A stretch of 64,000 nucleotides of DNA from assembly GCF_012272825.1 (NCBI RefSeq), contig NZ_JAAWWS010000153.1, forward strand, positions 1 to 64,000, written 5' to 3'. A program made the position numbers and the translations under genes. The notes beneath the pieces were generated by a model. That model ran no database searches, had not been told where the DNA came from, and saw only the letters and a program-made list of their open reading frames with translations. Shown piece after piece: positions 60,829-61,312 of the stretch; the stretch's first letter is position 1, and every line of letters begins with the position of its first letter. This DNA comes from Wenzhouxiangella sp. XN79A (GTDB taxonomy: Bacteria; Pseudomonadota; Gammaproteobacteria; Xanthomonadales; Wenzhouxiangellaceae).

Positions 60829-60856
60829 TTGACATGCAGCGAGTACAAGGTAGAAT
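60829..60856 (+). promoter_or_regulatory. Strong sigma-70 promoter before the tRNA-Leu leader
   Basis: -35 TTGACA (60829-60834, consensus) and -10 TAGAAT (60851-60856, one mismatch) separated by 16 bp. Predicted transcription start is near 60862-60864, which is exactly where the first hairpin of the leader begins. Confidence 0.85.
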
Positions 60857-60861
60857 TTTGC

Positions 60862-60939
60862 ATTCCGGTCTGGGGTTCCCCCCTTCCCCGAGCCGGAATT
60901 GTGGCCGAGGTTCCCCCCTTGCCTCGGCCACTTCTTTTT
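60862..60939 (+). ncRNA. Candidate C-rich-loop small RNA / tRNA-Leu leader, ~78 nt
   Basis: Between the promoter and tRNA-Leu(CAG) the sequence folds into two hairpins. The first closes with ATTCCGG (60862-60868) and CCGGAAT (60893-60899), with an inner GGGG/CCCC pairing. The second is a perfect 10-bp stem, GTGGCCGAGG (60901-60910) with CCTCGGCCAC (60922-60931). Both expose the same 12-mer GGTTCCCCCCTT (60874-60885 and 60909-60920). The second ends in TTCTTTTT and so is an intrinsic terminator. A short stable RNA is predicted, either by termination or by RNase P cleavage at the tRNA 5' end. Not previously named as far as I can tell. Confidence 0.7.
60901..60939 (+). terminator. Intrinsic terminator directly abutting tRNA-Leu
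   Basis: A 10-bp perfect GC-rich stem and 11-nt loop followed by TTCTTTTT (60932-60939). The T-run ends at the base before the mature tRNA 5' end, so read-through or processing is needed for tRNA expression from the upstream promoter. Confidence 0.8.
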
Positions 60940-61026
60940 GCCGAGGTGGCGGAATTGGTAGACGCGCTAGCTTCAGGTGCTAGTGTCCGTTAGGACGTGG
61001 GAGTTCGAGTCTCCCCCTCGGCACCA
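60940..61026 (+). tRNA. tRNA-Leu (anticodon CAG)
   Basis: An 87-nt class II tRNA. Acceptor stem GCCGAGG/CCTCGGC, anticodon stem CTAGC/GCTAG with loop TTCAGGT giving anticodon CAG, a long variable arm, T-loop GTTCGAGTC and an encoded CCA end. Reads CUG, the dominant leucine codon in a GC-rich genome. Confidence 0.95.
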
Positions 61027-61149: not shown

Positions 61150-61312
61150 AGTGTACCCCGCCACTCATTGTGTAACGTATAGCGAGTCGGAGGCCGTTTG
61201 GCTGCAAGGCCTGTCTCGCCGGGAATGGCAGCATCCTTTCCAGGCGGCAGAACGCCGCAGATGAATGCTCTCCGGCTCACCATACGTTACACAATGAGTG
61301 GCGGGGTACACT
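61150..61312. mobile_element. MITE-like element, copy A (163 bp), between two tRNA-Leu genes
   Basis: Terminal inverted repeats 61150-61180 and 61282-61312 are perfectly complementary over 31 bp (GTACCCCGCCACTCATTGTG core). The ~100-bp interior resembles copy B at 29113-29379. There is no coding capacity and no transposase here. The right border is followed by CTAGAA-type sequence, as in copy B. Confidence 0.88.

Follow-up and report, generated by a model that had tools for sequence, protein, structure and literature searches.

Genetic organization upstream of tRNA-Leu(CAG)

The window, that is, the whole 64,000-nt stretch of DNA that was analysed, contains a tRNA-Leu(CAG) gene; of the Leu tRNA matches obtained in its own genome, no other is a CAG gene. 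Upstream of this gene lie, on the same strand, a promoter and a short region that folds into hairpins; a divergent gene, whose sequence resembles an acyl-CoA dehydrogenase, occupies the - strand from ~60.6 kb. The elements of the locus are the following:

60829-60856, + strand: promoter, TTGACA (60829-60834), 16-nt spacer and TAGAAT (60851-60856), 11/12 match
60862-60939, + strand: predicted small RNA of ~78 nt with putative ends, from fold z, covariance model and covariation
60862-60899, + strand: hairpin 1, loop UUCCCCCCUU at 60876-60885, from the fold; loop kept and stem changed across 38 homologues
60901-60931, + strand: hairpin 2, 11-bp stem, loop UCCCCCCUU at 60912-60920, from the fold and the covariation of helix 3
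60932-60939, + strand: U-rich tail TTCTTTTT, terminator tail and/or 8-nt end of the tRNA leader, from sequence
60940-61026, + strand: tRNA-Leu(CAG), directly 3′ of the tail

A first-pass annotation of this DNA had proposed that a near-consensus promoter, TTGACA-N16-TAGAAT, fires into a 78-nt stretch made of two hairpins that share a 12-mer, and that the T-run behind them touches the mature tRNA. Our results bear out all of these points. The promoter is one of two promoter-like sites in 2 kb, shuffled sequences yielding 0.3, and scanning from 60829 to tRNA-Leu(CAG) revealed no second promoter-like site. Folding of 60862-60939 gave exactly two hairpins at -42.7 kcal/mol, compared with a mean of -23.2 kcal/mol for shuffled versions (z = -7.1, with 0 of 200 equally stable). 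Both hairpins contain identical GGUUCCCCCCUU segments, and the 12-mer GGTTCCCCCCTT, at 60874-60885 and at 60909-60920, has no further copy on either strand in the 388 kb of the organism's own genome that were examined. The tail stops immediately 5′ of base 60940, the first of the tRNA. Hairpin 2 is a possible stem of an intrinsic terminator; our terminator scan did not call it, solely because its 9-nt loop exceeds the 8-nt limit of the scan.

The motif UCCCCC(C)UU, and hence its complement, is scarce in the same 388 kb, with four sites on both strands, two of which are these loops. The complement may be scarce because pairing with the RNA is avoided, or because G-runs are avoided in general. 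Between both tRNA-Leu genes, positions 61150-61312 form a 163-bp imperfect palindrome that is MITE-like, with 56-nt arms that are 84% complementary. Its end sequence recurs within the window, on the - strand, and ends related to it (GTGTACCCCGCC) occur in three other places in the examined stretches of the genome.

Stems covary around conserved loops

Alignment A5 (38 homologues), whose fitting to the covariance model biases it toward structure, has 96.4% of its cells paired and compensatory changes in 18 of 21 pairs. It holds 103 double-change cells; shuffles give 18, and sliding the partner gives 8-27. Helix 3, which corresponds to hairpin 2, has 99.5% of cells paired and compensatory changes in 8 of its 11 pairs. 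The MAFFT alignment A2 concurs (99.1% paired, double changes in 6 pairs, 0/500 shuffles).

When homologues were folded singly, two C-loops were obtained in 38/38; in one of them (L030) the predicted loop of hairpin 1 terminates at the C-run. A run of C4-C7 is found in both loops of all 38 homologues, and the next base is a U in every loop but one (L068, CCCCCA). Between genera the stems have been replaced wholesale, and the C-runs of the loops retained. Changing stems around conserved loops are the pattern expected of a paired scaffold that shows a functional loop sequence. The promoter is kept too: a site scoring 9-11/12 stands at the equivalent position in 38/38 homologues, whereas random 71-nt stretches from the same loci score at least 9 in 2.2% of cases.

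The predicted RNA recurs across Wenzhouxiangellaceae

Leader and tRNA together are 89-93% identical across five genomes of the window's genus. A covariance model (R1) was built from 16 sequences and searched in 299 genomes of the order. R1 matches 37 of the 43 Wenzhouxiangellaceae genomes, at one place per genome; in draft genomes a missing match is no proof of loss. Weaker and diverged covariance-model matches were recovered in one other Lysobacterales family (f8). A match in Xanthomonadaceae (L074), where a C-rich hairpin lacks a clear second hairpin, was discounted as a probable chance hit. The broader model R2, used at E<=0.001 with the stricter filters of Infernal, was searched in 369 genomes drawn across the class and matched a single one, the organism's own genome, leaving the other 368 without a match.

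A loose pattern scan of named genomes gave matches in Wenzhouxiangella and other Wenzhouxiangellaceae (order Lysobacterales, also called Xanthomonadales), including W. sediminis XDB06. It also gave cyanobacterial and other matches, its looseness permitting chance or repeats. Our literature search found nothing on small RNAs in Wenzhouxiangella.

The link to tRNA-Leu(CAG) varies between lineages

In the window's genus (6 loci) and in genera g4 and g5 (4 loci), the RNA stands between a single promoter and tRNA-Leu(CAG). The same arrangement is found in the f8 copies L034, L065, L066, L068, L071-L073 and L076, and in all these single-promoter loci the 3′ end of the RNA falls within ~20 nt of the tRNA. 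The layout is different in 19 loci of Wenzhouxiangella and its sister genus, where the RNA is followed by a GC-rich hairpin with a T-run, then by a separate TATAAT promoter (10-11/12) and only then by the tRNA; in Wenzhouxiangella this third hairpin is a terminator without C-run. In L075 the tRNA lies ~950 nt from the RNA, and no tRNA is found near it in L069. For the other families of the order in which the CAG tRNA was retrieved, a plain promoter is located directly 5′ of the tRNA, with no hairpins.

These promoter and terminator layouts, together with L069 and L075, would place the RNA inside the transcription unit of the tRNA in several lineages and outside it in others, so that linkage, as read from gene order, is not obligatory. 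The proposal that the RNA is made from the 5′ leader of tRNA-Leu(CAG) is hence upheld for some lineages, in the form of a putative shared transcription unit, and fails for Wenzhouxiangella, where the RNA ends in a terminator hairpin of its own and the tRNA is preceded by a separate promoter, as well as for the two unlinked genomes. The sequences themselves show the structure, the conservation, the promoter and the gene order, and how this order differs between genera.

Since the linkage is not obligatory and the loops are conserved even after separation from the tRNA, the RNA is probably a trans-acting small RNA and not a cis leader element. The loops kept in Wenzhouxiangella despite the TATAAT promoter of the tRNA, and the unlinked L069 and L075, argue for trans action. 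The contrary reading is a cis-acting attenuator, in which the hairpins, chiefly hairpin 2 with the U-run, would set the amount of tRNA-Leu(CAG) by partial termination and the RNA piece would be idle. This would suit the terminator-like hairpin and U-run found between the sole promoter and the tRNA in the window's genus, g4 and g5. Yet an attenuator has no need for a conserved loop sequence, and both loops are nearly invariant in the 19 Wenzhouxiangella and sister-genus loci, where the tRNA promoter is 3′ of the RNA. With two genomes carrying the RNA without an adjoining tRNA-Leu(CAG), and three tRNA-adjacent homologues devoid of a U-run, we hold attenuation to be unlikely.

These three homologues also bear on how the 3′ end of the trans-acting RNA would be made. 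The U-run is kept within the window's genus, and second-family copies L068, L071 and L073 have AUUU instead. The first-pass annotation had named, as a finding that would refute it, leaders of relatives that do not keep the two C-rich loops and the T-run. Its core idea survives this test: both loops are kept, and the U-run is missing in these three copies. With AUUU only before the tRNA, termination is unlikely in L068, L071 and L073 and processing is the likelier source of the 3′ end; termination cannot therefore be its general source. That the end would be produced by RNase P is suggested by these same homologues, which abut the tRNA.

Proposed loop pairing and search for targets

The C-rich loops most likely pair with G-rich ribosome-binding sites, by analogy with sX13 and 6C/B11. 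The former pairs with G-rich motifs near start codons, and its repression needs both the C-rich loops and the G-rich motifs, Hfq being dispensable (PMC3771888). B11/6C represses G-rich ribosome-binding sites using either loop, and loop and target mutations that restored pairing restored repression (PMC10470900).

Six genomes of the window's genus and eight of the family were searched for AAGGGGG at a distance of 2-11 nt upstream of ATG, and 79 downstream reading frames were compared. No convincing conserved target of this motif was obtained in the 14 family genomes. A shared set in dnaN was an internal coding match, and the only other shared set consisted of one 51-aa ORF in two genomes. Comparison with the reversed pattern gave 134 versus 64 sites in six Wenzhouxiangella, 55 versus 38 in the window's genus and 26 versus 34 in genus g4; such a modest excess is no evidence of targeting, because any use of Shine-Dalgarno sequences would give it. 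The null search is in turn weak negative evidence, since gene starts were unannotated, a single motif was used and a subset of matches was fetched. The scarcity of UCCCCC(C)UU, and with it of its complement, in the 388 kb likewise weighs against the pairing model.

A different use of the loops would be that of a protein decoy, titrating an RNA-binding protein or Rho instead of mRNAs. Two near-identical loops per molecule, their very high conservation and the lack of a conserved mRNA target in our search are consistent with it, as is the general preference of Rho for C-rich RNA. Rho, however, requires long unstructured RNA, whereas the loops here measure 6-13 nt and sit on GC-rich stems, and the studied C-loop RNAs of this architecture work by base pairing. 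A decoy role is accordingly improbable in our view, and pairing with mRNAs remains the preferred function.

Relation to known C-loop and tRNA-derived RNAs

At the gathering threshold, Rfam returned only the two tRNAs. The best match to the RNA itself was 6C (RF01066), over its full length, at 33.1 bits for a cut-off of 47 (E = 0.004 for 161 nt), so that membership was rejected. At E<=1, 6C gave no match in eight loci of relatives, six of which hold homologues. Membership of sX13 (RF02232) was likewise rejected (16.7 bits, cut-off 50), and the sX13 model gave no match in the organism's own genome, whose polA 3′ flank (L203) holds no sX13-like RNA. The first-pass annotation's candidate, a C-rich-loop small RNA at this tRNA, thus stands at the level of sequence comparison: relatives keep both loops, the stems covary and no Rfam model reaches its cut-off.

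The likeness to the actinobacterial 6C/B11 lies in a pair of successive hairpins with some six C exposed in each loop (the C6 loops typical of 6C are present in both), and in a similar length. In contrast, the RNA described here is gammaproteobacterial and linked to tRNA-Leu(CAG), and its C-run is mostly followed by UU; the resemblance is probably convergent. With sX13 of Xanthomonadaceae it shares the order and the design of a short, highly structured RNA with stable hairpins and C-rich loops. However, sX13 lies 3′ of polA and consists of three hairpins whose loops carry 4C/4C/5C, and here two hairpins are found at tRNA-Leu(CAG).

Regulatory RNAs can also derive from a tRNA precursor, outside the tRNA itself, as does 3′ETS-leuZ of E. 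coli, which as a 3′ spacer acts as a sponge for Hfq-bound small RNAs; the RNA here is instead 5′, directly after the promoter, and has C-rich loops. The CCUCC-loop ("cuckoo") RNAs of Alphaproteobacteria have loops that resemble the anti-Shine-Dalgarno sequence, whereas here UU comes after an uninterrupted run of C, and CCUCC is absent from the loops of the 38 homologues.

Other C-loop RNAs were encountered on the way. Three-hairpin sX13-like RNAs, whose loops read CCCUCCCU, ACAGUCCCCA and CCUCCCUC or differ slightly from these, lie 3′ of polA in Wenzhouxiangella G010 (L199) and sister-genus G006 (L205), yet sX13 had been confined to Xanthomonadaceae (PMC3771888). Other families have comparable C-rich hairpins 3′ of polA, in L197, L204 and L206. 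In f8, L067 and L070 hold another C-loop RNA with three hairpins; its loops include UCCCCCUU, UCCCCUU and UGACCCCUU, and a methyltransferase gene resembling bioC adjoins it.

That the tRNA-linked RNA is a diverged 6C or sX13 member relocated to a new locus is very unlikely, despite the full-length 6C match, the weaker sX13 match and the presence of sX13 in the same order, since both scores stay below their gathering cut-offs, 6C was not reported in the tested relatives, and the separate polA-linked RNAs of G010 and G006 indicate that it is not simply sX13 moved. By this comparison the predicted RNA forms a separate family, neither 6C nor sX13, that probably works like both and whose distinguishing feature is its variable link to tRNA-Leu(CAG).

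Discussion

The model that we consider reasonably probable is that of a conserved two-hairpin trans-acting RNA whose loops repress G-rich ribosome-binding sites and which, in the window's genus, shares its promoter with the tRNA. The exposed loops, U-C(5-6)-UU, would block translation by pairing with G-rich stretches (AAGGGG, for example) in or close to ribosome-binding sites, a mode of action established elsewhere for sX13 and 6C/B11. The strong promoter of tRNA-Leu(CAG) would also drive the RNA in the window's genus. Transcripts halting at hairpin 2 would yield the RNA directly, and those reading through would yield the tRNA, with an RNase P cut at 60939/60940 freeing the same RNA. As the promoter would be shared and termination or RNase P would give the same molecule, the level of the RNA would follow tRNA output and growth. 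In this scheme we infer the transcript and its ends, the release by RNase P, the G-rich targets and their repression.

A more ambitious version, which we advance tentatively and hold to be rather doubtful, is that of a family of translation-repressing C-loop RNAs that owe their 3′ end to RNase P cleavage of a tRNA-Leu(CAG) precursor in some lineages and to their own terminator in others. Such an mRNA repressor would be made in parallel with a major tRNA and with growth rate, and would be an independent gene in Wenzhouxiangella.

The RNA described here would add a further family of C-rich-loop small RNAs, distinct from sX13 and 6C. Its two-loop design is shared with 6C of a distant phylum, which suggests repeated evolution of an anti-Shine-Dalgarno-like loop. 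Furthermore, its tRNA-leader and free-standing forms offer a natural comparison for how a small RNA may emerge from, or escape, a tRNA transcription unit, and the same comparison bears on whether one promoter ties tRNA supply to translation repression.
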